From Bacillus safensis FO-36b (GTDB lineage Bacteria > Bacillota > Bacilli > Bacillales > Bacillaceae), in NCBI RefSeq assembly GCF_000691165.1, contig NZ_ASJD01000003.1, forward strand, positions 372,001 through 436,000: a DNA stretch of 64,000 nt, read 5' to 3'. A program made the position numbers and the translations under genes. The notes under the pieces were generated by a model that had not been told where the DNA came from, ran no database searches, and saw only the letters and a program-made list of their open reading frames with translations. Shown here piece by piece: positions 27,903 through 64,000 of this stretch (the first letter of the stretch is position 1; each line of letters opens with the position of its first letter).

Positions 27903-27904
27903 TT

Positions 27905-30085: not shown

Positions 30086-30089
30086 ATAG

Positions 30090-30764: not shown

Positions 30765-30789
30765 GGCTTTTATAAAGGTGGTAAACCCT

Positions 30790-44397: not shown

Positions 44398-44661
44398 TTA
44401 ATCAGCTAACTTGTTTTGCAGCTGATGAACAATTTTATTGATTGTTGAAAAGTGCTCTGTCAGTAATTCCTCATCTGCAAATTGAATATCAAAAACCTCT
44501 TCTAATTCCAAAATGAGTGAAACTGCTTTAATCGAATCGAGACCGTGATTTGTTAATTCCTCATCTGCACCAATAGAAACCTTGCTGCTATCATCCAAAG
44601 AACGCAGAACCAAATCTTTTACTTGACTTGAAAGTGAAAGGACATCTGTCGTTTCATTCAT
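44398..44661 (-). CDS. Stand-alone acyl/aminoacyl carrier protein 1
   Basis: An 87-residue carrier protein with the phosphopantetheine attachment motif NHGLDSIKAVSLILELEEVFDIQF (Ser of GLDS) and a four-helix length. It is unlike AcpP of fatty acid synthesis (no DSLDTVELVM block), resembling the D-alanyl/aminoacyl carrier type. ATG 44661 follows AAAGGGAG; an in-frame TTG at 44667 is too close to it. It has its own minus-strand promoter and shares a terminator with mlpA. A plausible partner is the class-II synthetase-like ligase at 63029. Confidence 0.88.
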   Translation of the reverse strand: MNETTDVLSLSSQVKDLVLRSLDDSSKVSIGADEELTNHGLDSIKAVSLILELEEVFDIQFADEELLTEHFSTINKIVHQLQNKLAD

Positions 44662-44706
44662 CTGCAACGCTCCCTTTTACAAATTTTCTATCATTTACAT
44701 AAATTA

Positions 44707-44735
44707 ACTATATTAGAATGGAAAAACATTGTAAA
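44707..44735 (-). promoter_or_regulatory. SigA-type promoter of carrier protein 1 (minus strand)
   Basis: On the minus strand: -35 TTTACA (44735-44730), 17 bases, -10 TATAGT (44712-44707). Leader of about 40 bases to the ATG. Confidence 0.7.
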
Positions 44736-44830
44736 GCAGTTTCGACATAAATAGGAATTGTTGATCATTCTATTCAAATGAAATATTTGGTAGAGTGAGA
44801 AGAAAAGAGACTGGAAGGATGAATCAATCC

Positions 44831-45751
44831 ATGAATAAAACAGACCTTATGCAGCACATTCCCTTATTAAAAGAAGCGGTCAGCATAGACCACATTGATA
44901 AAGGATATTCTCGGGATGAAAAATGGGTCATGACTACGGTGTCAGGTGAAAAATATGTCCTTCGATTCACAGATCAAGACCAGTATGACAAAATAAAGAT
45001 GCAGTTTGAGCTGCTTTCCGAATTAAGACGTCATGGTGTTCAGTGTGCTGATCCAGTGAATATCGGTGTTCTAGAAGCAAAACAGCAAGTGTACTATATT
45101 TTATCGTTTATAGAAGGCCAGGAAGCAAAAGAAATCATGAGTCAGTTAACTGAAGAACAGCAGTATGCTATCGGGGTAAGTGCAGGTCAGGATTTACGAA
45201 ATATGCACAAATATCCGGCACCTTCACACATTGAACCTTGGGAAGATCGTGTCATTAAAAAGCATCATCGATATTTAACTGCTTACCGAGAAAGCGGTAT
45301 CTCCCTTGAAGGGGATGAAAAAGTGGCTCAGTTTATAGCAAAGCACTTACATATTGTGAAAGGCAGACCTAATCAATTTCAGCACGATGATTTTCATTTA
45401 GGGAACATTATTGTCAACAATCATAAATATGCAGGTGTTATTGATTTTAACAATTTTGACTGGGGAGATCCCATTCACGATTTTTATAAAGTAGCTCTTT
45501 TCAGCAGAGAAACAAGTGAAGCTTTTTCAGCTGGTCAAATCAATGGATATTTTGATGGGAACATTCCAGATGATTTTTGGCTGCTTTACTCTGTTTATGT
45601 CGCAATGAGTATCTTTTCATCGATTATGTGGGTTATTAAATTCGATCCGGGTCAAATGGATGAGATGATTGAAAGACTAGAAAATGTGCTAAAAGAACAT
45701 GATTATTTTAATCAAATAGAGCCTCAGTGGTATGCGCGTATCACTAGATAA
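44831..45751 (+). CDS. APH-fold small-molecule kinase 1
   Basis: A 306-residue protein of the aminoglycoside phosphotransferase/choline kinase fold: N-lobe with KYVLRFT lysine, Brenner motif FQHDDFHLGNIIVN (catalytic Asp and Asn) and metal motif AGVIDFNNFDWGDPIHDF. Such enzymes phosphorylate hydroxyls on sugars, antibiotics or choline-like substrates; it could be biosynthetic or self-resistance. The start is uncertain: ATG 44831 is 12 bases after GGAAGG, ATG 44819 is adjacent to it, and GTG 44795 is also in frame. A strong terminator follows. Confidence 0.85.
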   Translation: MNKTDLMQHIPLLKEAVSIDHIDKGYSRDEKWVMTTVSGEKYVLRFTDQDQYDKIKMQFELLSELRRHGVQCADPVNIGVLEAKQQVYYILSFIEGQEAKEIMSQLTEEQQYAIGVSAGQDLRNMHKYPAPSHIEPWEDRVIKKHHRYLTAYRESGISLEGDEKVAQFIAKHLHIVKGRPNQFQHDDFHLGNIIVNNHKYAGVIDFNNFDWGDPIHDFYKVALFSRETSEAFSAGQINGYFDGNIPDDFWLLYSVYVAMSIFSSIMWVIKFDPGQMDEMIERLENVLKEHDYFNQIEPQWYARITR

Positions 45752-45772
45752 CAGTGAAATATAGGACGATTG

Positions 45773-45800
45773 GGCAGTGATGGAAGTCACTGCCTTTTTT
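45773..45800 (+). terminator. Intrinsic terminator after the APH-fold kinase gene
   Basis: GGCAGTGA / TCACTGCC with a 6-base loop and T6. Confidence 0.92.
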
Positions 45801-45823
45801 GTTATAATGATGCAAATTACACA

Positions 45824-45852
45824 TTGTCATGACTAAAAACATTTTATATAAT
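45824..45852 (+). promoter_or_regulatory. Strong SigA-type promoter of the ABC exporter genes
   Basis: -35 TTGTCA (45824-45829), 17 bases, consensus -10 TATAAT (45847-45852). Its position shows that the upstream ATG at 45829 cannot be the translation start of the exporter gene. Confidence 0.85.
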
Positions 45853-45924
45853 CCAAACAAGGATCGAAAAAGATGTAAAAAAATTCCGTTTTTTGTTGAA
45901 AAAGAGCAAAAGGCTGGTGATGGA

Positions 45925-47694
45925 TTGAAACAAATCGACAAGGATTCAAAGCAGTTATGGCGTGTTTATTTATGGACACTTTCATTCTTAAAGCCTTATA
46001 CAGGTAAAGTGATTCTAGTTATTATGAGTGGTTTCGTTATTACCTTGAGCGAGCTCATCATACCTAAATTTATTCAATATTTTATTGAGACCATTTTGCC
46101 AGCAAAAGACTTTTCAAAAATGAATGGTTTATTGTTAGGACTGACTGGCTTAATTGTACTCGGTATTATACTGACAGCCGCACGAAATTTATGGCAAAGA
46201 AAATTAATTGAACAAGCCTCAAGAGATTCACAATTTGCTGCCTTCCAGCAAATCCGTCAACTTGGTTTCTCATACTACGAACAACATTCTGTTAGTGAAA
46301 CACTCTCCTTTGTTAACACACAGACACGAGCTGTACAAGAAATTTACAGACGATACTTCCCACAATTTATCAATCAGATATTATTTATCGCCATCTCACT
46401 TTACTTTATGATAAACATTTCTATTTTTCTCACACTAATCATCATTCCAAGTTTTATTCTCTACTATGTCTTTGGGCCATGGCTTGAAAAAAAGGCCACG
46501 ATCTACGGTAGACAAAGTGCAGAAGGTTTTCGCACGCTGCAAACAAAATTATACGAAAGTCTTGCTTCGATGGAAGAGCTTAGAATTTTAGGCTATATGA
46601 AATGGGATATGGAACGAATTCAAAAACTCCATGAAAAAGTGCGCCAAGATCATGAGAAAAATGTTTTTTTCGCCTATTTACGAGGAAGCAACCGCAGGCT
46701 GACTTATTATATTGGCGCTCTTGCCACTTTTGGTATTGGTATCCACCTTGTAAAGACTGGACAGCTAACGTCAGGTGGTTTTGTGGCATATATATTATAT
46801 TATTTTTCAGCGATGCATATGCTTACTTCCATTGTCACACTTTTAACAGAACAACGAATATTAACATTTCAAATTGAACCTTTATATCATTTTATGAAAA
46901 AAACACCTGATATTAGAGAGCCTCAGCAGCCGGTGTACCTTGATCATGTAGAAGGCGATATCGTGTTTCATGACGTCAGTTTTCATTATCCAAATCATCC
47001 TCCTTTATTAAAAGAGATGAATCTACATATTCGGAAGGGTGAAAAAGTAGCGCTTGTCGGTACAAGCGGCGGAGGGAAAACATCGCTTCTTAAGTTAATT
47101 GGACGCTTTTATGATCCCTCATCCGGGATGATTACAATGAATGGAGTTGATTTGCGCCGTTTACCTACTAGTCAAATAAGAGGTGCGATGGGATTTGTTT
47201 TTCAAGAAACGTTCTTATTTAATATGAGTGTAAAGGACAATATTCGTTTTGGAGATACAAGTCTTTCAGATCAACAGATCATTGAAGCCGCAAAAAAAGC
47301 AGACTGTGATTCATTTATAAGAGAGTTAGAAAATGGATACGATACCATACTCGGGGAAAGGGGATTAAAACTTTCCGGAGGGCAAAAGCAAAAAATAGCG
47401 ATTGCCAGGCTATTTGCTAAAAATCCAAGAGTTGTATTACTCGACGAAGCCACAGCATCTCTTGACAATGTCAGTGAGCAAAAAGTCCAGCATGCATTAC
47501 ACCAAACATTTAAGGAATCTACTGTCATTGCAGTTGCGCATCGTTTATCAACGGTCAGCCATTTTGACAGAATTATTTTTATAAAAGATGGTTGTGTGTT
47601 AGAAACTGGACCATTTCATGAATTGATGAGGAAAAAAGGGCATTTTTATCAATTGGCGTCTGACCGCTCAGAAAAGGAGGCAGGTGTAACATGA
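45925..47694 (+). CDS. ABC exporter half-transporter 1 (membrane + ATPase)
   Basis: A 589-residue type-IV ABC half-exporter: six membrane helices in the first 320 residues (VILVIMSGFVITLSELIIPKF and others) and an ATPase domain with Walker A GTSGGGKTS, Q-loop FVFQETFLFN, signature LSGGQKQKIAIAR, Walker B VVLLDEATASLD and switch His AHRLSTV. The frame is open back to ATG 45829, but that codon lies in the -35 box; TTG 45925, after GGTGATGGA, is the likely start. It overlaps the next gene by ATGA, so the two make a heterodimer. Probably exports the island's product. Confidence 0.9.
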   Translation: MKQIDKDSKQLWRVYLWTLSFLKPYTGKVILVIMSGFVITLSELIIPKFIQYFIETILPAKDFSKMNGLLLGLTGLIVLGIILTAARNLWQRKLIEQASRDSQFAAFQQIRQLGFSYYEQHSVSETLSFVNTQTRAVQEIYRRYFPQFINQILFIAISLYFMINISIFLTLIIIPSFILYYVFGPWLEKKATIYGRQSAEGFRTLQTKLYESLASMEELRILGYMKWDMERIQKLHEKVRQDHEKNVFFAYLRGSNRRLTYYIGALATFGIGIHLVKTGQLTSGGFVAYILYYFSAMHMLTSIVTLLTEQRILTFQIEPLYHFMKKTPDIREPQQPVYLDHVEGDIVFHDVSFHYPNHPPLLKEMNLHIRKGEKVALVGTSGGGKTSLLKLIGRFYDPSSGMITMNGVDLRRLPTSQIRGAMGFVFQETFLFNMSVKDNIRFGDTSLSDQQIIEAAKKADCDSFIRELENGYDTILGERGLKLSGGQKQKIAIARLFAKNPRVVLLDEATASLDNVSEQKVQHALHQTFKESTVIAVAHRLSTVSHFDRIIFIKDGCVLETGPFHELMRKKGHFYQLASDRSEKEAGVT

Positions 47695-49409
47695 GAAAAA
47701 ATTGGCTGTTTCTTTTGATCACAAGGCAAAAATGGATGCTCATCCTTGCTCTTTTACTCGTTTTGATTGAAGCAGCAGCTAATTTAGCCATGATAGGACT
47801 GCAAAAGTGGCTCATTGATGATGTTCTTTTGAATAGTGGTATCAGTCAACATTTCTCCCAGATCTTGATGCTGTTTGCCATTATATTTCTTGTATATGTT
47901 GTGATGTTTGTTGCCAGCCCATATGTGATGCATAAAAACTATCTGACCATCCATCATTCATTGCAGAAAATGATGTTAGATCAGCTTCAGCAAGTATCCA
48001 TGAGATCATATAAAACTCACCCAGTTAGTTTTTATTTACACAAACTTAATCAAGATGTAAAGACAGTTGCTGTTACGGCTGCTTTACATATACCGAAAAT
48101 TGTACAAACGATTTTTATGGCCATTGTTTTATCTATCATTTTGCTATCTGTGAGTTCTGTCTTATTTTTCTTGCTTCTCTTTGCAAGCGCTTGTTATTTT
48201 ATTGTCGGTAAAAAAATGGCGAAAACGGCAACAAACATAGCAAAAGATGTGCAGGAGAGAAGATCAGACCTATTCGTGCATGTAGAAGAAGGCATTTCTT
48301 CTACAAGGGAAGTTGTCGCATTCGATCGACGCAAGTGGGAAATCGGTTTGTATGAAAAGCTGTTTAACAAAATGATGGATCGTGTCATGAAGGAAGGTAA
48401 GTTTCAAAACAAGCTTCTTTTTTTAACAGAGCCATTGAAATGGTTTGGGATACTATCAGTTCTAGTGTTTGGCACATATCAAGTAGCAGCAGGAAACATG
48501 TCCATCGGTTTATTTGTCGTCATTTACCAATATGCATCTCAATTAATGAAGAGTTATCAAGAGTTATTCCAGTATGTATTTGAATTTTTCCAGCAGCGTG
48601 CATCTGTTCACCGAATCGCAGAAGTGCTGCAAATGGAAAACGAAGAAAAAGGAACAAAACGAATAGATGCTGTAGAAGACGTGGTGTTTGAAGATGTTTG
48701 CTTTTCTTATGAACAAACATCTAAAGGCGCTTTAGACGGCTTGAATCTTCATATTCCAAAGGGAAGGAAAGTGGCGATTGTTGGAGCGAGCGGCAGCGGG
48801 AAATCAACGATTTCAAAGCTTACACTTGGACTTTACCGGCCAGACAGCGGGGGAATTTTAGTGAATGGGGTTGATCTATCAGAGATCAATCCATCTCATT
48901 TATTAAAGCGAATAGCCGTTGTCCCGCAAGAGCCCTATTTTTTCCCAGACACGATACGCCTGAATTTAATCATGGGATTACATGATGTGACCGAAGAACA
49001 ACTTGAACAGGCTTGTGAAGTTGCACAAATTCTTTCCTTCATCAAAGGGCTTGAAAAAGGTTTTGACACAGTCATTGGAGAGAGGGGAATTTCCTTATCA
49101 GGAGGACAAAGACAGCGTTTAGCTATCGCCAGAGCGCTTTTAAAACAGGCTGATTTACTTATATTAGATGAGGCGACCTCCGCGCTAGATCGGCAGACAG
49201 AAAGGAAGGTTCAAAAAGGGATAGACGATGCCAAAGGAGGCGGCACCTTGCTTGTGATTGCACACAGATTATCGACCATACAAAATGCAGATTTAATCTA
49301 TGTACTTGAAGGCGGTGCTGTTCAAAGCTGCGGTACTCATGAGGAGCTGATGGAAGCCTCCTCGCATTACCGCTCTTTATTTATGGCCCAGGTAATTACA
49401 GCGTCTTAG
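47691..49409 (+). CDS. ABC exporter half-transporter 2 (membrane + ATPase)
   Basis: A 572-residue partner of the preceding gene, with the same six-helix plus ATPase layout. Motifs: Walker A GASGSGKST, Q-loop VVPQEPYFFPDTIRLN, signature LSGGQRQRLAIARALL, Walker B LLILDEATSALD, switch AHRLSTI. Here the ATPase site is canonical, while the partner has GTSGGGKTS, so one site may be weaker, as in many heterodimeric drug exporters. Its last 14 bases overlap the end of the convergent carrier-protein gene on the minus strand. Confidence 0.93.
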   Translation: MRKNWLFLLITRQKWMLILALLLVLIEAAANLAMIGLQKWLIDDVLLNSGISQHFSQILMLFAIIFLVYVVMFVASPYVMHKNYLTIHHSLQKMMLDQLQQVSMRSYKTHPVSFYLHKLNQDVKTVAVTAALHIPKIVQTIFMAIVLSIILLSVSSVLFFLLLFASACYFIVGKKMAKTATNIAKDVQERRSDLFVHVEEGISSTREVVAFDRRKWEIGLYEKLFNKMMDRVMKEGKFQNKLLFLTEPLKWFGILSVLVFGTYQVAAGNMSIGLFVVIYQYASQLMKSYQELFQYVFEFFQQRASVHRIAEVLQMENEEKGTKRIDAVEDVVFEDVCFSYEQTSKGALDGLNLHIPKGRKVAIVGASGSGKSTISKLTLGLYRPDSGGILVNGVDLSEINPSHLLKRIAVVPQEPYFFPDTIRLNLIMGLHDVTEEQLEQACEVAQILSFIKGLEKGFDTVIGERGISLSGGQRQRLAIARALLKQADLLILDEATSALDRQTERKVQKGIDDAKGGGTLLVIAHRLSTIQNADLIYVLEGGAVQSCGTHEELMEASSHYRSLFMAQVITAS

Positions 49410-49656
49410 TCAGTTTGTTTTTAACTAAAGTGAAGAGTCGTTCTAAGGTGCGGAAGTGGTCAGGGTGTAATTCTTCGTCTTCAAAGGCAATATGAAAGGT
49501 GTCTTCTAATGAAATAACAAAAGAGACGATTTGGACAGAATTTAATCCTAAAGCTTTTAAACTATCATCTCGGCTTGGCTGCTCATTGAGAGACAACTTA
49601 TTCATGACAAGCTGGACAATTTTTTCTTCAACTTCAGTTATTGTCAGTTCATTCAT
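49396..49656 (-). CDS. Stand-alone carrier protein 2
   Basis: An 86-residue carrier protein beginning MNELTITEVEEKIVQLVMNKL. The attachment site reads KALGLNSVQIVSFVISLEDTF: the Ser is kept, but the preceding Asp is Asn (GLNS instead of GLDS). The second half (FHIAFEDEELHPDHFRTLERLF) aligns with carrier protein 1 (FADEELLTEHFSTINKIV), so the two are paralogues. ATG 49656 follows AAAGGAG; longer frames upstream have no site. It lies antisense between the exporter and the kinase block, with its 3' end overlapping the exporter gene. Confidence 0.87.
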   Translation of the reverse strand: MNELTITEVEEKIVQLVMNKLSLNEQPSRDDSLKALGLNSVQIVSFVISLEDTFHIAFEDEELHPDHFRTLERLFTLVKNKLTKTL

Positions 49657-49757
49657 GTCGCGGCTCCTTTCTAAGAGATTGATATATGTTACATTTTGGT
49701 TGATTAAGGAAAAAAATGCAATTGTTTTTATAAATCTATCATAAGGGGTGGCATTCA

Positions 49758-50771
49758 TTGTCATATGTAAGCTATCAAAAAAATGATGTTCGTGTCGTAT
49801 TAGGTGCAGATGAATCAGTTCAGAATTTAGTGATAAGTAAAGTGCATCCATATATTGACTGCAGCAAAATAACAGAAAAACATGAAGGTGACGTTTGGAC
49901 GATTTTAACCAGTAAATATGCACAAGAAATTCAAAAAGAAATACCTCTTGAAGAAGTCTTTTACCAAACGAAGATGGAGCCCCGCTGCCGCTACTTGTAT
50001 GACGGAGAGAAAAAAATCATTGTGATAGATGAACCAAAAGATATCAGATGGACAGCCCAGCATGCGCTTCGGTTAATAAGAGTTTTGCTTCGCCTTTTGT
50101 GTTATCAGGATGGACTCATCTATTTGCATGGGGGCATGATGGAGATGAATCAAAAGGGAATTGCCCTAGTGGGCGGATCAAGGGCAGGGAAAACGTCCAC
50201 CATCTTATCCTTATTATCATTAACCGATGCTCGATATATCACAAACGATGATATAGGTGTTTCATATACGAACACCGAGTACACAGGAACTGGCTGGCCG
50301 AGATCTATGAGTATTCGGAAAGATTCGTTTGAAGCCATTGAAAAGCTGGGTACCCCATACAGACTCCAAACATCGAGTCATCCATTTAACGAGGATGATA
50401 AAAGCTATCATTTTGTATATCCAGAGGAGCTAGAAAAATGGTTTTCACGTGAAGTCAAAACAATGGGGAAAATCGATGTGATTGTATTTCCTGAATTTTT
50501 ACCACACGGGCAAACTGGGGCAGAACTTTCGAAAATGACTCCGCAGGAAGCAGCGGAACGTTTGAAGCAGCATGCAGTCATTAATCCTGGAAGACATAAT
50601 GAATTCTTATTACCATATTTCACATTGCCAACACCCGAAGAGCTAGAACCATTCCTTAACGCACTAGCGGAAAAGGTGCCCTGTTACTCATTAAAACAGG
50701 CATTTACTTCTTTAGAGAAAGGCACTGTCCTCATTCAAGAGCTTCTTGAGCAATCCGACATTGTCGTGTAA
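49758..50771 (+). CDS. HPr kinase-like P-loop protein 1
   Basis: A 337-residue protein. After a beta-rich N-terminal part (1-110), the C-terminal half follows the HprK catalytic fold: YLHGGMM (the position of the usual LHASAV strand), P-loop GGSRAGKTS at about 139-147 with Lys145, and YITNDDIGVSYTN with the tandem Asp of HprK-like kinases. It lacks the HprK C-terminal capsule signature, so HPr is not its target. Related HprK-like kinases phosphorylate RiPP (lasso) peptides. TTG start after AAGGGGTGG. It opens a four-gene run with CYTH, nucleotidyltransferase and a second HprK-like gene. Confidence 0.82.
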   Translation: MSYVSYQKNDVRVVLGADESVQNLVISKVHPYIDCSKITEKHEGDVWTILTSKYAQEIQKEIPLEEVFYQTKMEPRCRYLYDGEKKIIVIDEPKDIRWTAQHALRLIRVLLRLLCYQDGLIYLHGGMMEMNQKGIALVGGSRAGKTSTILSLLSLTDARYITNDDIGVSYTNTEYTGTGWPRSMSIRKDSFEAIEKLGTPYRLQTSSHPFNEDDKSYHFVYPEELEKWFSREVKTMGKIDVIVFPEFLPHGQTGAELSKMTPQEAAERLKQHAVINPGRHNEFLLPYFTLPTPEELEPFLNALAEKVPCYSLKQAFTSLEKGTVLIQELLEQSDIVV

Positions 50772-50790
50772 GACTTTTTGGAGGTGAATT

Positions 50791-51369
50791 ATGGTTGAGC
50801 AGGAGTACAAATATTTGTTGTCACAAACAGATTTTCAGCACATATATGACATGTTCATTCAATATCATACACCTACTTATGTTCTTAATTTCAATTACTA
50901 TTACGACACACCAGATTTTTTATTAAAACGATTTGGTTATACCGTACGTATCCGTCAAATCAGCGGCAAACTAACACTTGAAATCAAATGCCCCAGTCAA
51001 ACGTCTGGCTATAAAAGAGTAAGAGAAGAAACGTCATTACCTATTGAGGAGTTACCGCAAAAACTAGATGTACAGAACATCATGACGTCTTTACCAATTA
51101 CAATCACTCAACAGCCAGAATTGTTAGGGCTATTGGTCACTGAGCGAACAACCTTTTACATTGAGAAAGGCATTAAAATCGATTTGGATCAAAGCAGCTA
51201 TCTTGGCATCACAGATTATGAACTGGAAATTGAATATGACAGTGAAAAAGCATATGAGGCAGATCAATTGTTTCATACATTAACTGATGATTTGGACATG
51301 CCAGCCAATCGAAAAGGAAAGCGCTCTCGATTTATCACTAGATTTCAATCGTTTTACGGGAAGGAGTAG
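50791..51369 (+). CDS. CYTH-domain (triphosphate tunnel) protein
   Basis: A 192-residue protein with the CYTH signature near the N-terminus (EQEYKYLL, an ExExK type motif), basic/acidic alternation typical of tunnel strands (YTVRIRQISGKLTLEIKCP, YKRVREETSLP) and ITDYELEIEYDSEKAYEAD near the end. CYTH proteins hydrolyse triphosphates (tripolyphosphate, thiamine triphosphate) or cyclise ATP. Lying between two kinases and a nucleotidyltransferase, it could act on a polyphosphorylated intermediate (inference). TGGAGGTGA precedes the ATG. Confidence 0.85.
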   Translation: MVEQEYKYLLSQTDFQHIYDMFIQYHTPTYVLNFNYYYDTPDFLLKRFGYTVRIRQISGKLTLEIKCPSQTSGYKRVREETSLPIEELPQKLDVQNIMTSLPITITQQPELLGLLVTERTTFYIEKGIKIDLDQSSYLGITDYELEIEYDSEKAYEADQLFHTLTDDLDMPANRKGKRSRFITRFQSFYGKE

Positions 51370-51375
51370 TCAAAC

Positions 51376-52521: not shown

Positions 52522-52544
52522 CAAATTGAAGGGGAGGATTCTAT

Positions 52545-54793: not shown

Positions 54794-54899
54794 AATAGAC
54801 ACCTCTTTCATACAGAATATATATATATTACCAAATGTTTCATGTTGTTTTAAGATGAACGATCAATATTTTTATATTTTAAAAGAGAGCGGGCGATAG

Positions 54900-56132: not shown

Positions 56133-57172
56133 AAAGGATGAAAAAAAGTGTCATTGAAGCCGTACATGCATGTATTCATACAAAAGAACCTATGGCAGTG
56201 ACCATTCATCCCTATGAAATTGAAAAACAACAACAATTGAAACAACACCATCTTCTGTTGATGCTAAAGCCTGAATTAACAAGCATCAATAAAGGTGTAC
56301 AGCTTGATCTCATACTAGATGAACTTCTCCACCGATTAGATGATCGTGATGTAGAAATAGGAGCCGTGCGTGTTATATCATCCTTATATTTGAAAGAAAA
56401 GAAAATAATTGAAAATCAATATGGGATGCTAAATAAAATTTCTAAAAATGGTCTGAGTGAAGTGTCAGATGCAGCCAAAAAGATACTGGCTTTGAAATAC
56501 CCAGAGTTTAAAAAGAAGGAACATTTCATATATGGAGGCCATCAATTTTTACAAAAGTACAAAGAGCTCACGCCGTATGGTTTAGAGCTTTTAACCCGAA
56601 ACGTCAAAGTAGACAAGCTGGGTGCGGGCACATACGCCATAGAGGCCGAGGTGGATGGAGAAAAAATGCTTCTGCTCAATTCATTCCACCCTTGTCAAAT
56701 AGAGTGGTTCACTGCACCTGCAAAGTCTATTATCGTCATTGAATGTTTTTCAAAGCAGCCAATGAGGATGTTGAGAGAAGATTTCATCGGTGCAACGGAC
56801 CCTAAAGAGGCTAAAGCGGGTTCTTTTAAACACATGCTGCTGTCGGAGCAAAAACGGTTTGGTTTATCTAACGTGTGTACTCGGTTTAATGGCATTCACC
56901 TGTCACCGGGTCCTGTAGAAGCGATGGCGGGAATGATTCACTATTTTAGTACACCTGATACAAGACTGACTCCCGCGCATACACTTTTTGGCCAGCTGTT
57001 AAAGGAAAATGGCTTTTCGGCGGAAGCATTAGATCTATTATGTAAAGATGTGTCCATTCATTCAAGCGAAACGCCCGTATTTGAATTAACAGAAAACCTA
57101 AATTGGAATGAAGCACTTGATCTGCTAGTAAAAGTGAGAGACGACATTCAAAAGCATCAACGTGTTCTGTAA
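56126..57172 (+). CDS. Protein with a split nucleoside-diphosphate-kinase-like domain
   Basis: A 348-residue protein of unknown function. Two stretches match the NDK fold in order: LLLMLKPELTSINKGVQLDLILDELLHRL (strand 1 and helix, usual MIKPDAV) and, much later, MRMLREDFIGATDPKEAKAGSFKHM (usual R.LIGATDPKEAAPGTIR) followed by FNGIHLSPGPVEAMAGMIHYF (usual N.IHGSDS). His258 occupies the phospho-His position. About 110 residues are inserted between the halves, so it is not an ordinary NDK. The GTG start overlaps the preceding stop by 7 bases, with AAAGGCGTG upstream. Probably a phosphoryl transferase acting in this pathway (inference). Confidence 0.7.
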   Translation: MVKRMKKSVIEAVHACIHTKEPMAVTIHPYEIEKQQQLKQHHLLLMLKPELTSINKGVQLDLILDELLHRLDDRDVEIGAVRVISSLYLKEKKIIENQYGMLNKISKNGLSEVSDAAKKILALKYPEFKKKEHFIYGGHQFLQKYKELTPYGLELLTRNVKVDKLGAGTYAIEAEVDGEKMLLLNSFHPCQIEWFTAPAKSIIVIECFSKQPMRMLREDFIGATDPKEAKAGSFKHMLLSEQKRFGLSNVCTRFNGIHLSPGPVEAMAGMIHYFSTPDTRLTPAHTLFGQLLKENGFSAEALDLLCKDVSIHSSETPVFELTENLNWNEALDLLVKVRDDIQKHQRVL

Positions 57173-57185
57173 CGGAGGGAACAAC

Positions 57186-57737
57186 TTGAACAATAAAGGA
57201 GCTAGCCAGCGAATTTGGATTGTCGGTCCGCCTGGATCTGGAAAAACAACCCTTGCACATCAATTGAAGCAGGAGTTAACGTTACCTCACTATGAACTCG
57301 ATGCTCTATTCTGGCAAGCGAACTGGAAAAAAACAGATAAGCCGGTGTTTATCGATAACGTCCATGAAATTGTCAAACAAAAGAAATGGGTCGTCGATGG
57401 TCAATATTCATCTGTTCACCACATATTGGCTGAATATGCTGATACGATCATTTGGCTTGATGTCAAGAGAAGACAGACATTCCCCCGTCTCATGAAAAGG
57501 ACATTCAAACGGCTCATCACAAGGGAGAAACTTTGGAATGGAAATAAGGAGCGAATGGGTAACGCGCTCCAATTTTTCTCATATGCCTTTCAAGTCTATC
57601 CAGAGGTGATTCATCAAAACGAAAAGCTTTTTCACAAATTAAAAGAAAAATCTCATGTGAAATGCTTGCGCATAGACAAACGGGACGATGCAGACCAGGT
57701 GCTAATGAAAATCAAAAACCTTGAGAAAAAGGGGTGA
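57186..57737 (+). CDS. P-loop small-molecule kinase (AAA/adenylate-kinase-like)
   Basis: A 183-residue P-loop kinase: IWIVGPPGSGKTTLAHQL (Walker A), HYELDALFWQANWKKTD, WVVDGQYSSVHHIL, a strand TIIWLDVKRR as Walker B-like, and an arginine-rich lid (MKRTFKRLITREKLWNGNKERM). This is the pattern of FlaR/topology-modulation proteins and small-substrate kinases. TTG 57186 follows CGGAGGGAA. Four bases separate it from the next gene. Substrate unknown. Confidence 0.82.
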   Translation: MNNKGASQRIWIVGPPGSGKTTLAHQLKQELTLPHYELDALFWQANWKKTDKPVFIDNVHEIVKQKKWVVDGQYSSVHHILAEYADTIIWLDVKRRQTFPRLMKRTFKRLITREKLWNGNKERMGNALQFFSYAFQVYPEVIHQNEKLFHKLKEKSHVKCLRIDKRDDADQVLMKIKNLEKKG

Positions 57738-57741
57738 GGAC

Positions 57742-58731
57742 ATGACGACACTAGATGATGCTAATAATGTCCTGAAATATTGGTTTTCGGAACAGCCGAT
57801 TCGCTTAACACCTTTAAACGGAAGAAGCCCTAATGAAGGATGGCTTGTCGAAACGATCAAAAACCGTTTTGTCTTAAAAAAATGTGCGAGAAATCATGAT
57901 GCAAAGTGGCTTCAATATTTAGAGGAATTAACAGATGCTCTGCTTGATCATGGCTTCCCGATTCAACCTATGGTGGAGGCAGAAGATCATCGTAAGACCA
58001 TTTTATTCAAAGAACACTTTTGGCAGCTGCGGCCCTATTTCGAAGGAAGACCATATGAAATGGGAAATCGTTCAGATGAACAAGAAGCCATCCGGGTAAT
58101 AAAACAGCTCCATTCACTGAAGAACTTACCGAAAGGACCTGTGAATCCAAACTGCGAATTGAAGAACTGGATTACTTCTCCGGACGAAACGCTCGGCAAG
58201 ACGGCTTATGCCCTAAAAAAGGTTGTTTCTTCTAAAAAGGCTGCTGCTTTGCTCAAAGTGTATGAACGGGAACTAATGAATATCATCACGCTGCTAAACC
58301 CTAGTATATACGAAGCATTACCTCATGCTGTTACACATGGTGACTTTCATTCTGGCAATCTGCTCATTCGTAACAAAAGGCTTGCCATGGTTCTTGATTT
58401 TGATACAGCATGCTTTAGACCGCGAGTATATGATGCAGCCATATCTGCTTTTTTGTTAACGAGAATCAAGAGAGGAACGTTTCAACTAGATATTGTGAAA
58501 ACGATTCAATTTTTAAAGGCATATGCAGATGACTTATCCGAATATGAATGGCGCTCAATATCTGCGTTTATCAGACTTTTATATATTCCGACAGAGCGGT
58601 ATTTAACACTGCTGCACACCTATACACCTCACTTACTAAACTGGTATATTGATTGGTCTTTCGAAGCACTAGAATCTGCATCAAACCAGCTGAAGGAAGA
58701 TTGGTATCTCCAAAAGGAGATGAGAACATGA
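57742..58731 (+). CDS. APH-fold small-molecule kinase 2
   Basis: A 329-residue kinase of the APH/choline kinase fold with Brenner motif VTHGDFHSGNLLIRN and metal motif AMVLDFDTACFRPRVYDAA. It is not closely similar to the APH-fold kinase at 44831 outside the motifs. ATG 57742 follows AAGGGGTGAGG; the in-frame TTG at 57721 lacks a site. Its stop overlaps the next start (ATGA), so it is within the operon from the SAM synthetase onward. Confidence 0.85.
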   Translation: MTTLDDANNVLKYWFSEQPIRLTPLNGRSPNEGWLVETIKNRFVLKKCARNHDAKWLQYLEELTDALLDHGFPIQPMVEAEDHRKTILFKEHFWQLRPYFEGRPYEMGNRSDEQEAIRVIKQLHSLKNLPKGPVNPNCELKNWITSPDETLGKTAYALKKVVSSKKAAALLKVYERELMNIITLLNPSIYEALPHAVTHGDFHSGNLLIRNKRLAMVLDFDTACFRPRVYDAAISAFLLTRIKRGTFQLDIVKTIQFLKAYADDLSEYEWRSISAFIRLLYIPTERYLTLLHTYTPHLLNWYIDWSFEALESASNQLKEDWYLQKEMRT

Positions 58732-59456
58732 AGATCGCTGTTGTCACTGGCGGAAACAGGGGCATAGGCAAAGAAGTATGCAGACAGCTTGCGCAGTGTG
58801 GAATGCTTGTTATTTTAACTGCACGGCAGCTTGAAAGTGCCAAAATAGCTGCGTCTGAAATGACTGAGCATGTTGTGCCATTTCAGCTGGATGTAACAAA
58901 TGAAGAATCGGTTGAACGTTTCTCGGCATTTATAAAAGATTCGTTCGGGAGAGTGGATGTGCTCATTAATAATGCCGGTGTCTTTCATGACAACATAAAG
59001 GATCACACCTTTCCATCTTTTCTAGATCTTCCTGTATCGACACTCCAAGAAACGATGAATGTGAATGTGTATGGTGCAGTCAGAATGACCAAGGCCGTTT
59101 TCCCTTACATGAAAGAGGCGGGATATGGACGGATTGTCAATGTATCCAGCGGTATGGGAAGGCTCTCTGCGATCTACGCTTCAGGCGATGTCAGGCGTGA
59201 TGGAAAAAGCGGTCCTTACTACCGGATGTCAAAAGCGGCGCTGCATGTTCTCACAAAAGTCACAGCTTTAGAGGGGGCACCCTATTCTATCCTTGCGAAT
59301 GCAGTGTGTCCTGGCTGGGTACAAACGGACATGGGGTCATCAGAGGCTGTTAAAACCATACAGGAAGGTGCATCAGGAATCGTGTGGGCGGCACAGCTGC
59401 CCCGAGATGGACCAACAGGAGAATTGTTGAGGGACGGGCAAAGACTTCAGTGGTAA
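58728..59456 (+). CDS. Short-chain dehydrogenase/reductase 1
   Basis: A 242-residue classical SDR: cofactor motif VTGGNRGIG, DVLINNAGVF, catalytic Ser in IVNVSSGMG and YYRMSKAAL (YxxxK). VCPGWVQTDMG follows. It resembles carbonyl-reductase-like SDRs. NADP preference is suggested by the Arg at the second strand (TARQLE). ATG 58728 follows AAAAGGAGATG and overlaps the preceding stop. It could oxidise an inositol hydroxyl (inference). Confidence 0.9.
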   Translation: MKIAVVTGGNRGIGKEVCRQLAQCGMLVILTARQLESAKIAASEMTEHVVPFQLDVTNEESVERFSAFIKDSFGRVDVLINNAGVFHDNIKDHTFPSFLDLPVSTLQETMNVNVYGAVRMTKAVFPYMKEAGYGRIVNVSSGMGRLSAIYASGDVRRDGKSGPYYRMSKAALHVLTKVTALEGAPYSILANAVCPGWVQTDMGSSEAVKTIQEGASGIVWAAQLPRDGPTGELLRDGQRLQW

Positions 59457-59470
59457 GAGGAGGCAACTAC

Positions 59471-60244
59471 ATGCGAGGTATGAAAGGAAAGACAGTTATT
59501 GTGACAGGCGGAGCTCAGGGGATTGGATATGCGGTCGCAGAACGAGCCGCACAAGAAGGCGCACAAGTCGCCATTGCTGATCATCATGTAGATTACGGAA
59601 TTGCAGCAGAAAAACAGCTCAAAGCAAATGGATATGATGTTTTGTTTATAGAGGCTGATATTGCTGATGAAGCATCCATTGTTTCAATGATCGAAAAAAC
59701 AGCCAATCATTTTGGGAAAATAGACATGCTGGTGAATTGTGCAGCCGTGTTTATCATGCGGGGTCTTGAAGCAACCGTTGAAGAATGGCGGCGCATTATG
59801 GATTTGAATATTATGGGACAAGCGCTTTGTGTCAAACACACTTCGCCTTACATGGAGAAAATAGGAAAAGGATCGATTGTAAATATTGCCTCCATTTCAG
59901 GCCACATTGCCCAGCCGAAATATTTAACATATAACGCGACAAAAGCAGCTGTTGTCAATATGACGCGGTGCATGGCAATGGATTTGGCGGATGCAGGTAT
60001 TCGTGTAAACGCAGTGAATCCAGGCACGGTATGGAACAAAAATAACGAGCGGTTCCATTTAGAAGAGCTTGGATTGACAAGAGAGCAAGCAAATCAGCAT
60101 CCTGATATTGGCGGGATGCACATGTTGAAACGAACCGCTGATCCAGAAGAGATCGCATCTGCTGTCATCTTCCTTCTTTCAGATGAAGCGAGTTTTATTA
60201 CAGGAGAAAATTTGATGGTTGACGGCGGCTATACTGCCATGTAG
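59471..60244 (+). CDS. Short-chain dehydrogenase/reductase 2
   Basis: A 257-residue classical SDR: VTGGAQGIGYAVAERAA, Asp after strand 2 (VAIADHHVD, pointing to NAD), LVNCAAVFIMRG in place of NNAG, SIVNIASISGHIAQPKYLTYNATKAAV with Ser, Tyr and Lys, and the C-terminal FLLSDEASFITGENLMVDGGYTAM. Likely NAD-dependent alcohol dehydrogenase of the glucose/inositol dehydrogenase style. GAGGAGGC precedes the ATG. Confidence 0.92.
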   Translation: MRGMKGKTVIVTGGAQGIGYAVAERAAQEGAQVAIADHHVDYGIAAEKQLKANGYDVLFIEADIADEASIVSMIEKTANHFGKIDMLVNCAAVFIMRGLEATVEEWRRIMDLNIMGQALCVKHTSPYMEKIGKGSIVNIASISGHIAQPKYLTYNATKAAVVNMTRCMAMDLADAGIRVNAVNPGTVWNKNNERFHLEELGLTREQANQHPDIGGMHMLKRTADPEEIASAVIFLLSDEASFITGENLMVDGGYTAM

Positions 60245-60259
60245 AGGAGTAAAAATTGC

Positions 60260-61066
60260 ATGAAATTTGATCTGCACACACATCATCAACGCTGTGGTCA
60301 TGCGGAAGGGAACATCAGAGAATATATCGATGAGGCTGTCAAATTAGGTCTGGATTTTATTGGGATATCAGATCACTCTCCGTTCTTTGGTGAAGAGGCT
60401 GACCACTTTAAACCATGGGTAGCGATGGCTAAAAGTGAATTTCAATCATATATAGAGGAAGTCCTGCAGTTGAAAAAGGAATATGACGGAAAAATTCACG
60501 TGCTGTTAGGTGTCGAATCTGACTATTTTCCAGATCACGAGACCCTTTACCGAGACGTGTATCGACATTATCCATTTGATTATATCATTGGCTCGGTTCA
60601 TGTCAGTAATGGATATGACCTATTTAACCGGAAACGGTGGGAACAAATCACAGAGCAGAAAGCCATCATTGAAAAAGAAACGTATTACCAGTTAATTAAA
60701 ATGTCTGCTGAGAGTCAAATGTTCGACGTTTTAGGCCATATTGACGCCTTAAAAGGTTTTTATCCAGAGATTGCTCATCTCAAAACAGAAGCTGTCGATG
60801 ATGCACTGCAAGCAATTGCGGAGAGTGGTTCTGTCATTGAAGTGAATACCTCTGGCAAAACAAAAGACTGCGGCGGCTGGTATCCATCAATGGATCTATT
60901 AGAGCGAGCCAAATTTTATGGTGTGGATGTCACGTTTGGCTCAGATGCACATCAGCCAGCCCGCGTAGCAGATGATTGGCTGAAAGTAAAAGAGACGCTG
61001 AAGGAATTGGGTTACAAGGAATGGTATATCTTTCAATCTCGTCAAAAACGAAAATTGGCTCTATAA
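60260..61066 (+). CDS. PHP-family phosphatase (histidinol-phosphatase-like)
   Basis: A 268-residue PHP phosphatase with the metal-binding pattern FDLHTHHQRCGHAEG, FIGISDHSPFFGEEADHF, GVESDYF, DYIIGSVHVSNGYDLF, DVLGHIDALKGF and VTFGSDAHQPARVAD. Overall it matches HisJ/HisK phosphatases, but its place next to inositol phosphate synthase suggests that it dephosphorylates an inositol (or other cyclitol) phosphate rather than histidinol phosphate (inference). AGAGGAG precedes the ATG. Confidence 0.88.
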   Translation: MKFDLHTHHQRCGHAEGNIREYIDEAVKLGLDFIGISDHSPFFGEEADHFKPWVAMAKSEFQSYIEEVLQLKKEYDGKIHVLLGVESDYFPDHETLYRDVYRHYPFDYIIGSVHVSNGYDLFNRKRWEQITEQKAIIEKETYYQLIKMSAESQMFDVLGHIDALKGFYPEIAHLKTEAVDDALQAIAESGSVIEVNTSGKTKDCGGWYPSMDLLERAKFYGVDVTFGSDAHQPARVADDWLKVKETLKELGYKEWYIFQSRQKRKLAL

Positions 61067-61090
61067 ATTCTAAAAAAAGGGGTTATGAAA

Positions 61091-62173
61091 ATGACAAAAG
61101 TTCGCGTAGCAATTGCAGGAGTAGGATCATGCGCTTCAAGTATCGTTCAATTTGTAGAATTGGCAAAGGAAAAGATGGATACGCTCTCCGGTGTTATGCA
61201 TGATGTCATTGGAGGTTATCACTTGTCTGATGTGGAATTTGTTGCAGCTTTTGAAGTAGATCAAAATAAAGTAGGAAAAGACTTATCAGAGGCTATTTTT
61301 ACTAAACCAACGGCTGCAGTTAAACATATTGATGTTCCGTTTTTCCAAGTACCTGTTGAAGCAGGTCCTTTATGTGATGGTCTTGAAGGAGATTTGTCCA
61401 ACTGCATTCAGCCGCATGAACATTCATTAAAAATGAACACACATGATGTGACGCAAAGATTAAAGGACGTTCAGGCAGATGTACTAGTCTGCTTCTTACC
61501 GACAGGTTCGTTTGAAGCAGTTCGAGTATACGCAGAGGCGTGTGCACACGCGCAAACTGCCTTTATTAATGCGACACCTGAACCAGTGGCAAATGATCCT
61601 GAATTTGTCAAAATGTTTGAAGAGTCGAATACCCCGCTCCTTGGAGATGACTTAAGAAGTCATTTAGGTGCCACAACACTGCATACAGCGTTAATTGAGC
61701 TATTAAAATCCCGAGGGATTGACATTACCAATACGTACCAATTAAATGTCGGAGGCAATACAGACTTTTTAAACCTTGCCAACCCAATGAGATCAACGAG
61801 TAAACAAAAATCGAAGCGGAAAGCATTATTTGCCTCTGGTATTGATGCCAGCGAAGTGGCAGCAGGTCCAAATGGCTATGTCAGCTATTTAGGGGATCAT
61901 AAAGTCTGCTTCCTGCGATTGGAAGGAAATTCTGTTTTAGATTCAGACATTTCGCTTGAAATCCGTTTACAAGTAGAAGATTCTCCGAATTCAGCTGGTG
62001 TTATTGCTAACGCAATGCGCGTAGCAAAAGCAGCTAAAGATATGAATCACAGTGGTGTCATACATGACGTTTGCCCATTCTTATTCAAAAGCCCTCCAAT
62101 TGGACAAGTAGATTCAGAATCATTGCGTCTATTCAATGAATATGTAGCAAATGCTGAGCTGAAAAAGGTGTGA
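61091..62173 (+). CDS. myo-Inositol-1-phosphate synthase (prokaryotic short type)
   Basis: A 360-residue NAD-dependent synthase converting glucose 6-phosphate to inositol 3(1)-phosphate. Signatures: VRVAIAGVGSCASSIVQFVE, VEFVAAFEVDQNKVGKDL, ATPEPVANDPEF, LLGDDLRSHLGATTLHTALIELL, NVGGNTDFLNLANPMR and EDSPNSAGVIANAMRVAKAA. This is the actinobacterial/archaeal short form; Bacillus normally catabolises inositol and does not make it. ATG 61091 lies 8 bases after AAAAGGGG; ATG 61085 is only 2 bases away from that site. Confidence 0.92.
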   Translation: MTKVRVAIAGVGSCASSIVQFVELAKEKMDTLSGVMHDVIGGYHLSDVEFVAAFEVDQNKVGKDLSEAIFTKPTAAVKHIDVPFFQVPVEAGPLCDGLEGDLSNCIQPHEHSLKMNTHDVTQRLKDVQADVLVCFLPTGSFEAVRVYAEACAHAQTAFINATPEPVANDPEFVKMFEESNTPLLGDDLRSHLGATTLHTALIELLKSRGIDITNTYQLNVGGNTDFLNLANPMRSTSKQKSKRKALFASGIDASEVAAGPNGYVSYLGDHKVCFLRLEGNSVLDSDISLEIRLQVEDSPNSAGVIANAMRVAKAAKDMNHSGVIHDVCPFLFKSPPIGQVDSESLRLFNEYVANAELKKV

Positions 62174-62176
62174 TCA

Positions 62177-63028
62177 GTGGAAGCAGAACTAAATCTTTGC
62201 GAGATAAAATTTGCCGCTTTTGACTTGGATGGAACATTAATTGATGAACGAGGCGAGCTTATTGGTGATGTCCATGGCGCAGTGAATATGCTGCGCCAAA
62301 GAGGCATTATTTCAATAATTGTCACAGGCAGAACCTATGATTCTTTCTTCTCTCTGAACTTAGATCCTTCTTTACTCAATTTATTTCATCATGATGTTTT
62401 GCTGAATGATGGAAATGTGATTTGCCATCATCAAAAGAAAACATTTGACGTTAAACAATATCTAAATGCTGCTATATGCCGGCAGGTTATCTCATCACTT
62501 GATGGTCAAGCTGAATTTGTCATGGAATCACACGGGAAGCATGTGGCATCAAGTAAAAGCGCTAAGTTGAAATATTGCATGCTTTACACATTTCCACGAG
62601 AAAAAATAGAGGTTGGTCATCAGAAAGAATTCACATTTGACCGTGTGACAAAACTATTTATTTTACCGAAAGAAAAAATAGATATCGCTCATCTATTAAG
62701 AGATTGTCATTGTGATGTTGCGGATGCCCAGTTTTTAAATGCACAAGTGGTATCCCCGAAAGGAATTTGTAAGGCGGATATGCTTGAACGCCATTTATTA
62801 GATTGTTTTGGAGAAAGTGATTTAAATCGTGTGATTGCTTTTGGAAATGGTCATAATGACAGACTGCTGCTCAAGAAGGCGAGGTGGGGGCTGGCAGTTC
62901 AAGATAGCCATCCATCGGCGATTGAGTTATGTGATGTTCATCTGGGGGAGTCTATTTATGACTATCTTGATAAAGTTTCACAACCATTAGAAGCACCAAA
63001 AGTGATCAATGAAAAGGGAGGAATTTAG
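62177..63028 (+). CDS. HAD-superfamily phosphatase (Cof/IIB type)
   Basis: A 283-residue HAD phosphatase: motif I AAFDLDGTLIDERG, motif II IIVTGRTYDS, a C2-type cap (about 85-200) and the motif III/IV region VVSPKGICKADMLERHLL plus IAFGNGHNDRLLLKKA. The motif IV is FGNGHND instead of the usual FGDGxND, an Asp-to-Asn change that keeps the second Asp. Likely a sugar or cyclitol phosphatase. GTG start after AAAAAGGTG. The next gene begins one base after the stop (TAG then TTG). Confidence 0.87.
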   Translation: MEAELNLCEIKFAAFDLDGTLIDERGELIGDVHGAVNMLRQRGIISIIVTGRTYDSFFSLNLDPSLLNLFHHDVLLNDGNVICHHQKKTFDVKQYLNAAICRQVISSLDGQAEFVMESHGKHVASSKSAKLKYCMLYTFPREKIEVGHQKEFTFDRVTKLFILPKEKIDIAHLLRDCHCDVADAQFLNAQVVSPKGICKADMLERHLLDCFGESDLNRVIAFGNGHNDRLLLKKARWGLAVQDSHPSAIELCDVHLGESIYDYLDKVSQPLEAPKVINEKGGI

Positions 63029-64000
63029 TTGAGTACCCTTCAGCTGCCTTTACCAGATGCGCTAGAAGATACAATGATACCAGATTTTGTGGAAAGAGTT
63101 TCTTTTCTATCAGCCCATATTTTGCACGTTGATCTTCTTGAAGAGGAATCTGTTATTGAAGTAACAGTCGATCATACGGGAGATGCAGAGGCAATATCAG
63201 CTGCGTTTTTAAAGTTATCGTCAAATGTAGCTCAACTGCGGAGGTTTCGTGAAAAGGAAATGAAATCAAATATTCATTTAAAAAGTGAGCCTGTTCATTC
63301 GAAACTAAGCGGGGATGACCAAAAGAGAACTTTCTATGACGAAATTGAAATGGAACTCGCACACTATTTTGATCAATTATTCTTAAATATGGGGGCTTCA
63401 CTTGGGGCCAAATTAAGAAAATACCCTTCTACGATGAGTAAAGAATTAATGGAAAAGTGTAAATACCATACAAATTTTCCGCAAAATATTTATTCTGTTT
63501 TTGAAATACCTCATGATTACCAGGTTATTGATGACATTCGAGAAAAGCATCATGGTTTTCTGCCTGAACACTTCCAGCAAGCAGGTCGATTTTTACAGCC
63601 GTGCATTTGTTATCACTGCTACGAGGAATGGGAAGGGAAGACCTATACAGACAATCAAATGATGACAGCAGCGGGGCAGTGTTTTAGACATGAAATTTCT
63701 TGGAAAGTAGATCCCCTAAGGAAACTAGAATTTAGTATGCGTGAAATTGTCTTTATCGGTAATAACGAATACATTAACGAAACAAGAAAAACACTTCTTG
63801 AACACACATGGCAATGTTTTCATCAGCTTGGCCTTAGTGGTAAGGTCACCACCGCAAATGACCCCTTTTTCTTTTATGATGATATGGATAAAGCGAATTA
63901 TCAATTAATGGCAAACAGCAAATATGAGTTAGTAGCTGTGACAGAAAAGAAAGACGTTTCGATCGCTTCATTTAACGACTGTGGAGAGATGCTTTGTGAA
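63029..64000 (+). CDS. Class-II aaRS-like amino acid:[carrier protein] ligase, 3' end beyond the window
   Basis: The frame is open for 324 codons to the last base, so the protein continues. The N-terminal 120 residues are poorly conserved. From about residue 180 it resembles the truncated seryl-tRNA-synthetase-like ligases that load amino acids on carrier proteins: RFLQPCICYHCYEEWEGK, then AAGQCFRHEISWKVDPLRKLEFSMREIVFIG, where CFRHE is motif 2 of class II synthetases and the Cys/Glu residues fit the zinc site of that family. NDPFFFYDDMDKANYQLMANSKYELV follows. No tRNA-binding coiled coil is evident. It likely charges the carrier proteins at 44398 or 49396 (inference). TTG start after AAAGGGAGG. 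Confidence 0.82.
   Translation, partial: MSTLQLPLPDALEDTMIPDFVERVSFLSAHILHVDLLEEESVIEVTVDHTGDAEAISAAFLKLSSNVAQLRRFREKEMKSNIHLKSEPVHSKLSGDDQKRTFYDEIEMELAHYFDQLFLNMGASLGAKLRKYPSTMSKELMEKCKYHTNFPQNIYSVFEIPHDYQVIDDIREKHHGFLPEHFQQAGRFLQPCICYHCYEEWEGKTYTDNQMMTAAGQCFRHEISWKVDPLRKLEFSMREIVFIGNNEYINETRKTLLEHTWQCFHQLGLSGKVTTANDPFFFYDDMDKANYQLMANSKYELVAVTEKKDVSIASFNDCGEMLCE

Follow-up and report, generated by a model that had tools for sequence, protein, structure and literature searches.

A gene island of Bacillus safensis with an altered archaeal-type SAM-synthetase homologue, a predicted NDP-kinase fold and a putative route to SAM-like cyclitols

We analysed a window of 64,000 nucleotides of Bacillus safensis FO-36b (contig NZ_ASJD01000003.1, positions 372,001-436,000; genome G000), in which an island of 27 genes begins at window position 44398, overruns the window end at 64000 and closes at about 72523. 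We read the island as a gene cluster for a specialised metabolite. We tentatively propose that a cyclitol is phosphorylated to its triphosphate, condensed in a reaction like that of methionine adenosyltransferase (MAT; S-adenosylmethionine (SAM) synthetase) to a SAM-like (thio)cyclitol and decorated by carrier-bound amino acid chemistry, a proposal slightly more apt to fail than to hold. The initial annotation had taken the product for an aminoacylated cyclitol or pseudosugar. The gene content fits a cyclitol and a carrier-bound amino acid, but the conserved heart of the cluster proved to be an archaeal-type MAT homologue, the NDP-kinase-fold protein Orf12, short-chain dehydrogenases/reductases (SDRs), a PHP phosphatase and kinases, in company with a cyclase of the inositol-phosphate-synthase family. 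Families were assigned to the 27 proteins from Pfam scans, NCBIfam models and profile searches against the PDB, with bit scores read against the model cut-offs; four of the 27 proteins had no Pfam match.

The SAM-synthetase homologue, Orf12 and the cyclase

A genome collection was scanned with four aligned MATs, using the patterns AHHWFDK, which contains the Trp discussed below, and KG[VIF]GHPDT, which lacks it, and the best 80 of 398 relatives were taken. MAT identity among these 80 shows a gap: it is 50-95% in L028-L055 (28 loci), 43% in L056 and at most 37% in the other 51, hereafter the generic loci. The cluster set of 31 loci comprises L029-L056 (L028 was left out as lying on the same contig as genome G030), the own island and two plasmids, which gave the best joint match when a plasmid collection was searched with the island cyclase (111 records) and MAT (27 records).

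The island MAT (54900-56132, plus strand) belongs to PF01941, the archaeal-type methionine adenosyltransferases (320 bits, cut-off 27). Catalytic, diol-binding, stacking and methionine-carboxylate roles of the TkMAT residues are those given in PMC3853416. The equivalents of His33, His62, Asn161, Asp201, Asp283 and Tyr271, a set that covers the catalytic His, the Asp pair binding the ribose diol and the adenine-stacking Tyr, are kept in all 31 cluster MATs. At the position of Asn64, the residue that binds the methionine carboxylate, 30 have Trp and one (L056) has Tyr, against Asn in 49 of the 51 generic MATs, and Ser164 is replaced by Asn and Glu280 by Asp throughout the 31. Among the best 80 loci, no MAT above 37% identity has Asn at position 64. 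The matching His and Asn of the P. furiosus enzyme are listed among the conserved SAM-contacting residues in PMC8727953, according to which archaeal MATs also accept several nucleoside triphosphates. The loss of the carboxylate-binding Asn suggests a changed mode of nucleophile binding, in which methionine has perhaps been replaced, and the kept Asp pair fits a substrate with a cis-diol ring. The cluster MATs thus share their family, catalytic His, diol-binding Asp pair and stacking Tyr with TkMAT (PDB 4l4q) and SsMAT (PDB 4hpv), and differ from them in the three replacements and in sitting in biosynthetic loci close to a gene for an NDP-kinase (NDK) fold. A long MAT loop, considered as a further novelty, was dropped because several generic MATs have long loops.

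The gene close by encodes Orf12 (56126-57172, plus strand; 348 aa), which has no Pfam or NCBIfam match. A profile of four Orf12 rows, run against the PDB, returned NDP kinases as eight of nine matches at E 1 (best 0.0089), and a 22-row profile did so for 36 of 39 (best E 4.9e-5). Its AlphaFold model has a mean pLDDT of 93.1 and a pTM of 0.91, and the best 50 of 470 Foldseek matches (E 10) were all NDKs, with 36 at E <=0.001. All 22 aligned rows, near-copies among them, have Asn255, His258 and Ser260, and Lys48-Pro-Glu is nearly as constant; the Lys-Pro-Glu and Asn-x-x-His-x-Ser elements fit what we take to be the catalytic motif of NDKs. Orf12 is, as modelled, an NDP-kinase-fold protein with a catalytic His, and its NDP kinase activity is putative. 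It differs from NDKs in a large insertion, the listed structures having 136-182 aa, and in needing a profile for its resemblance to emerge in sequence. Orf12 shares a locus with MAT in 27 of the 31 cases, and in 24 of these it starts about 150 bp or less from the end of the MAT gene; it lies farther away in L054 and both plasmids. An Orf12 profile (A3) matched one of 398 genomes of the phylum, the own genome.

The cyclase (61085-62173, plus strand; PF01658) shares about 44% identity with M. tuberculosis INO1 and about 40% with Ari2 of the aristeromycin pathway (PDB 6k96), an enzyme that turns fructose 6-phosphate into a five-membered cyclitol phosphate, as stated in PMC11188666. A tree places 18 of the 22 cluster cyclases on the Ari2 side of a branch with 90/85 support, the branch of Ari2 itself being very long. 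Seven positions fixed in all 18 agree with Ari2 against the canonical synthases (140T, 166E, 185L, 193H, 231L, 248L and 264G). Lys 62, 240, 244, 273 and 335 are invariant in the canonical synthases, Ari2 and the 18 cluster rows. From its sequence, the cyclase appears to be a separate, active-looking lineage with which either ring size is compatible.

Recurrence of the core outside the genus

Cyclase, MAT, SDR and Orf12 occur together in a Parageobacillus plasmid, in a genome of class Bacilli (G338) and in a Paraburkholderia plasmid, and the core set as a whole co-occurs in Streptomyces, Firmicutes, Photorhabdus and Paraburkholderia. Across the 31 loci, MAT being the seed and present in all, profiles matched Orf12 in 27, SDR in 26 (the profiles of SDR1 and SDR2 detect each other's targets), cyclase and PHP in 22 each, APH2 in 20, and HprK1 and the P-loop kinase in 17 each. 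The remaining matches were carrier proteins in nine loci, HAD and NTP_transf_5 in seven each and the amino acid:carrier-protein ligase in four. The weakest scores of core profiles were 22 bits for SDR2 (L043), 81 for APH2 (L034) and 94 for PHP (L052). The 51 generic loci, which are shorter on average than the cluster loci (14.3 against 20.1 kb), gave cyclase in two, Orf12 in two (27-36 bits), SDR, PHP and HprK1 in one each, and APH2 and the P-loop kinase in three each; the contrast is large even allowing for profiles derived from the cluster itself.

In the own island, the core members besides those described above are HprK1, an HprK-like P-loop kinase (49758-50771) without a Pfam match, whose top three profile matches in the PDB are HprK (E 0.0015-0.0016); an adenylate-kinase-like P-loop kinase (57162-57737; AAA_17/AAA_18; PRK08118 113 bits, below the cut-off of 215); the APH-fold kinase APH2 (57721-58731; PF01636 72.5 bits); SDR1 (58653-59456; PF00106) and SDR2 (59384-60244; PF13561 214 bits); and a HisJ-type PHP phosphatase (60260-61066; PF02811; PRK07328 235 bits, above the cut-off of 202), all on the plus strand. 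Six genes are confined to this island among the 31 loci, namely those for the CYTH protein, ATP-grasp, pyridoxal phosphate (PLP) decarboxylase, BtrH-like protein, 184-aa protein and beta-lactamase-fold protein. Other loci add a StrS-type aminotransferase, a NUDIX, carbamoyltransferase, transketolase-like or AMP-ligase gene, or a nonribosomal peptide synthetase (NRPS), so that a common core appears with variable decoration. The aminotransferase occurs in six related loci and is split in two pieces in Parageobacillus; these six come from automatic gene picking, which includes some antisense frames in high-GC loci, and agree with a separate homology search. A single-sequence search at E 1 with the PqqD protein found in Parageobacillus brought up nothing in the remaining 30 loci, a point against a RiPP-type (ribosomal peptide) reading.

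Individual loci differ in what accompanies the core. In Photorhabdus asymbiotica (L054, 5957-17344), a compact core stands with a SurE-family gene, a carbamoyltransferase, a StrS-type aminotransferase and a NUDIX gene. In a Tissierellales metagenome-assembled genome (MAG; L042, 159-7841), cyclase and MAT are closely preceded by an NRPS, which comprises three condensation, two adenylation and three carrier domains and a thioesterase. The cyclase of the Paraburkholderia locus adjoins a thymidylate-kinase-like protein (26.8 bits, Pfam cut-off 27), perhaps a nucleoside monophosphate kinase of another type in the slot of the P-loop kinase. Two generic loci, L063 (1405-3705, Legionella sp. MAG contig) and L065 (32-4824, Bacteroidetes MAG contig), combine an inositol-phosphate synthase with an archaeal-type MAT, and L065 further carries a gene of the thymidylate kinase family (58.6 bits) and one with weak resemblance to alanyl-tRNA synthetase (25.2 bits, below the cut-off).

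No characterised cluster with such a gene set was found among the open-licence PMC matches listed, as judged by titles and abstract starts, with subscription papers and cluster databases outside the scope. This agrees with the earlier view that no described Bacillus pathway has these genes, and the novelty of the core set is provisional. Mannostatin, a methylthio aminocyclopentitol, was considered as a product type, and no biosynthetic match to it was present among 15 of the 33 literature matches.

A putative pathway and its alternatives

The proposed pathway would start with ring closure of a hexose phosphate by the cyclase; the resulting cyclitol phosphate would probably be a cyclopentitol that bears an exocyclic CH2OH, like the one that Ari2 makes from fructose 6-phosphate. 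The PHP phosphatase, the HAD phosphatase or both may then take off the phosphate, and the SDRs may adjust the oxidation state. A kinase relay would follow, in which APH2 or HprK1 makes the monophosphate, the adenylate-kinase-like P-loop protein the diphosphate and Orf12 the triphosphate, a cyclitol compound that mimics ATP. MATs attack the primary CH2O-triphosphate of ATP; on chemical grounds, an exocyclic carbon of this kind is present in a cyclopentitol of the Ari2 type and missing from myo-inositol. The MAT-like enzyme could use methionine or a related sulfur nucleophile to displace tripolyphosphate and form a SAM-like sulfonium or thioether. In B. safensis, this product would be joined to a carrier-bound modified amino acid by the amino acid:carrier-protein ligase, the acyl carrier proteins (ACPs), ATP-grasp, PLP decarboxylase, the acyl-CoA-dehydrogenase-like (ACAD) protein, the BtrH-like transferase and AsnB, and exported by the ATP-binding cassette (ABC) pair. 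Gene content, conservation and the residue changes of MAT and cyclase are observed and the fold of Orf12 is a prediction; every substrate, the step order and the product we infer. The fuller claim, that a kinase relay ending in Orf12 and a repurposed archaeal-type MAT alkylating a sulfur amino acid make carbocyclic SAM-like molecules, capped here with an amino acid, by a widely scattered and apparently undescribed route, is bolder, and we consider it somewhat unlikely to hold in all its parts.

Several points weigh against this pathway. The Foldseek alignments of Orf12 span just the NDK part, with TM-scores of 0.28-0.34 by query and 0.58-0.77 by target and an rmsd of 4-10. Profiles trained on cluster loci favour their own members, and the Trp was built into one of the patterns used in the scan. 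L042, L047 and L052 have cyclase and MAT without Orf12, L056 has MAT and none of the other core genes, and no cyclase was found in nine of the 31 loci within the fetched stretch. The generic loci L063 and L065 pair a canonical-looking cyclase with a MAT that keeps Asn64, and pairing of cyclase and MAT alone is therefore no proof of altered chemistry. The cyclases of L040, L047, L052 and L054 lie nearer the canonical side of the tree, and L040 and L054 still have Orf12. At 69 diagnostic positions, fixed in the canonical synthases (nine rows of class Bacilli and M. tuberculosis INO1) and different in Ari2, the own cyclase is canonical at 26, Ari2-like at 13 and neither at 30. This count, with 56 of 69 positions canonical or neither, weakens a simple equation of the cyclase with Ari2. 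The inositol core assumed in the initial annotation became doubtful as well, and with it "inositol" as a product label, the cyclase being of a distinct lineage that shares seven residues with Ari2 and is not Ari2-like at most diagnostic positions. The adenine-stacking Tyr kept in all 31 MATs is also compatible with a base-bearing substrate. The order of the kinases is guesswork, and the product, the substrates and the activities are all putative.

The carrier half of the island is relevant to the closest alternative. Its ligase (378 aa; 63029-64000, plus strand, interrupted by the window end and running to about 64165; PF00587) matches the Bradyrhizobium amino acid:[carrier protein] ligase 3mey (E 6.9e-21) and shares its catalytic domain of the class II aminoacyl-tRNA synthetase type, whereas the N-terminal part before the match is about 45 residues longer and the score of 121.8 bits lies below the family cut-off of 357. 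The carrier proteins are ACP1 (44398-44667, minus strand; 89 aa; PF00550 38.1 bits; serine motif GLDSI) and ACP2 (49396-49680, minus strand; 94 aa with a chosen start, the listed open reading frame (ORF) being 49396-49923; PF00550 30.1 bits, NCBIfam ACP models below cut-off). Genes past 64000 are given in coordinates of L002, to which 53000 is added for the window, and lie on the strand of MAT: ATP-grasp (L002 12284-13543), type III PLP decarboxylase (L002 13491-14840), ACAD (L002 14800-15999), the BtrH_N-like protein (L002 16025-17020; PF14399 24.6 bits, Pfam cut-off 29.7), for which the PDB gave no sequence match, and asparagine-synthase-type AsnB (L002 17556-19523). In outline, this half resembles the building of the butirosin side chain, for which we take the 4-amino-2-hydroxybutyrate (AHBA) module to be BtrI, J, K and H. 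The analogy, drawn already in the initial annotation, gained strength from the ATP-grasp, PLP decarboxylase and weak BtrH_N match downstream of the window. The island differs from butirosin in its ligase of the class II synthetase (3mey) type, in its additional ACAD and AsnB-type genes and in that no domain like 2-deoxy-scyllo-inosose synthase (DHQ-synthase-like) appeared in the Pfam scans of the island proteins.

A product of the butirosin type, an inositol or aminocyclitol bearing an aminoacyl group, with MAT as a local supply of SAM and the extra kinases leading to a phosphorylated or NDP-activated cyclitol, would make use of the ligase, the two ACPs, ATP-grasp, PLP decarboxylase and the weakly BtrH-like gene, and the StrS-type aminotransferase of six related loci would suit it too. 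However, a search for this aminotransferase in the own island gave no match, the Pfam scans of the 27 proteins (four without any match) showed no methyltransferase domain, the host has an ordinary MetK, and the methionine pocket of the MAT is altered. The ligase is moreover present in just four of the 31 loci. Because the conserved partners are MAT and Orf12 rather than the aminoacyl genes, we demoted this reading to a rival and consider it unlikely. An aristeromycin-like carbocyclic nucleoside, whose triphosphate would give a true carbocyclic SAM with its base, would accord with the kinase relay and MAT, which imitate the course from adenosine through ATP to SAM, with the invariant adenine-stacking Tyr, with the fixed residues common to cyclase and Ari2 and with the NUDIX and SurE genes of some loci. 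Against it, no phosphoribosyltransferase or other base-attaching or purine-modifying domain, of the kind that would be expected from the aristeromycin cluster, was detected in the Pfam scans of the island, and the Asp by which TkMAT contacts the adenine amino group is aligned in only two of 31 cluster MATs (Asp or Glu in 34 of 51 generic ones), a count of little weight as the loop aligns poorly. We regard this product as improbable.

Still a little less probable, in our view, is that two or three independent operons came to lie side by side by chance or joint transfer and share no product. Most of the 31 loci do hold the core without the aminoacyl genes, strand and spacing divide the island into several transcription units, a terminator-like site of 10 pairs follows APH1 (45772-45795; such sites number 13 against 14.4 expected in shuffles, and so are not above shuffle frequency), and an APH1-like gene resides alone in siblings. 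On the other hand, all 27 proteins are encoded colinearly in G023 and G030 at 78-96% identity, which puts the grouping of the genes beyond chance; from MAT to AsnB, 17.6 kb of overlapping or near-abutting genes run on a single strand; and the ligase accompanies cyclase and MAT in L042, L047 and L052 too. Separately conserved operons, a possibility raised in the initial annotation, are thus borne out in so far as the core travels without the aminoacyl part, and contradicted by the colinearity of 27 genes in three genomes.

Gene layout, genomic slot and significance

Besides the genes of the proposed pathway, the plus strand carries APH1, an APH-fold phosphotransferase (44795-45751; PF01636), the two ABC exporter halves (45829-47694 and 47691-49409; both PF00664 and PF00005), a CYTH-domain protein (50791-51369; PF01928 62 bits), the NTP_transf_5 protein NTase1 (51376-52521; PF14907 142.6 bits), the HprK-related kinase HprK2 (52545-53714; TIGR04355 31.8 bits, below the cut-off of 200) and the HAD-IIB phosphatase (62177-63028; PF08282). 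The CYTH family includes triphosphatases. A beta-lactamase-fold serine hydrolase (53711-54811; PF00144) is encoded on the minus strand, and a second NTP_transf_5 protein (L002 11152-12282) and a 184-aa protein with no assigned family (L002 16989-17543) on the strand of MAT. Every gene type named in the initial annotation is present in its place; two HprK-like kinases, one of which may be the "P-loop kinase" named there, CYTH, NTP_transf_5, the beta-lactamase-fold gene and Orf12 go beyond its list. The visible part holds no NRPS, polyketide synthase (PKS) or cyclase of a ribosomally synthesised and post-translationally modified peptide (RiPP), as had been noted. HprK, NTP_transf_5 and AsnB families are also found in lasso peptide clusters; a lasso or other RiPP cluster was rejected as AsnB, which lies past the window, scores 216 bits against the lasso-cyclase model, below its cut-off of 525.

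Extension to the right, which had been advised, showed that the cluster continues beyond 64000 and ends at about 72523 before the PRC-barrel gene ymxH, which is followed by spore dipicolinate-type genes; mlpA flanks the other side. The names of mlpA, ymxH and the spore genes are those we presume from B. subtilis. The search of relatives, likewise advised, found the full island in G023 and G030; three of 44 genomes of the genus have the MAT gene, and three of 80 of the family have the cyclase. Loci with ymxH were obtained from 30 of the 44 genomes, and mlpA lies near ymxH in 26 of them, with gaps of 57-85 bp (13 loci), about 1.02-1.04 kb (11) and 274 and 457 bp (two); it is not near ymxH in the own genome, G023, G030 and G024. 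Nine of the 30 were read further, and in eight the slot holds an APH1-like gene or fragment of 35-49% identity (45-49% where near full length). In island-less relatives, for example L112 (470-1520), the APH1-like kinase gene is the sole occupant of the slot between mlpA and ymxH. G024 (L113) has a decayed copy of the island before ymxH, with just fragments of APH1, the first ABC gene, the 184-aa gene and AsnB. The empty or APH1-only slots and this decayed copy mark the island as an insertion that can be lost. APH1 itself may be native to the slot and probably does not belong to the core.

Elsewhere in the window, a separate stretch (22725-31611) combines an ABC transporter with ORFs that resemble cyclodehydratases (by eye, one of the YcaO kind), a SagB-type dehydrogenase, a CPBP membrane protein and a methyltransferase, and GC is low, at 0.34-0.36, across 20001-32000. 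To us this stretch looks like a candidate azole peptide cluster of the plantazolicin type.

Rule-based cluster finders may overlook the Bacillus island, from which NRPS and PKS genes are missing. Being small and recurrent in unrelated genera, the core is minable through the Trp signature of MAT and a nearby NDK-fold gene. If the proposal is true, a MAT with a substrate other than ATP and methionine would put an essential enzyme family to a new use, and carbocyclic SAM-like products could act as inhibitors or alternative cofactors.

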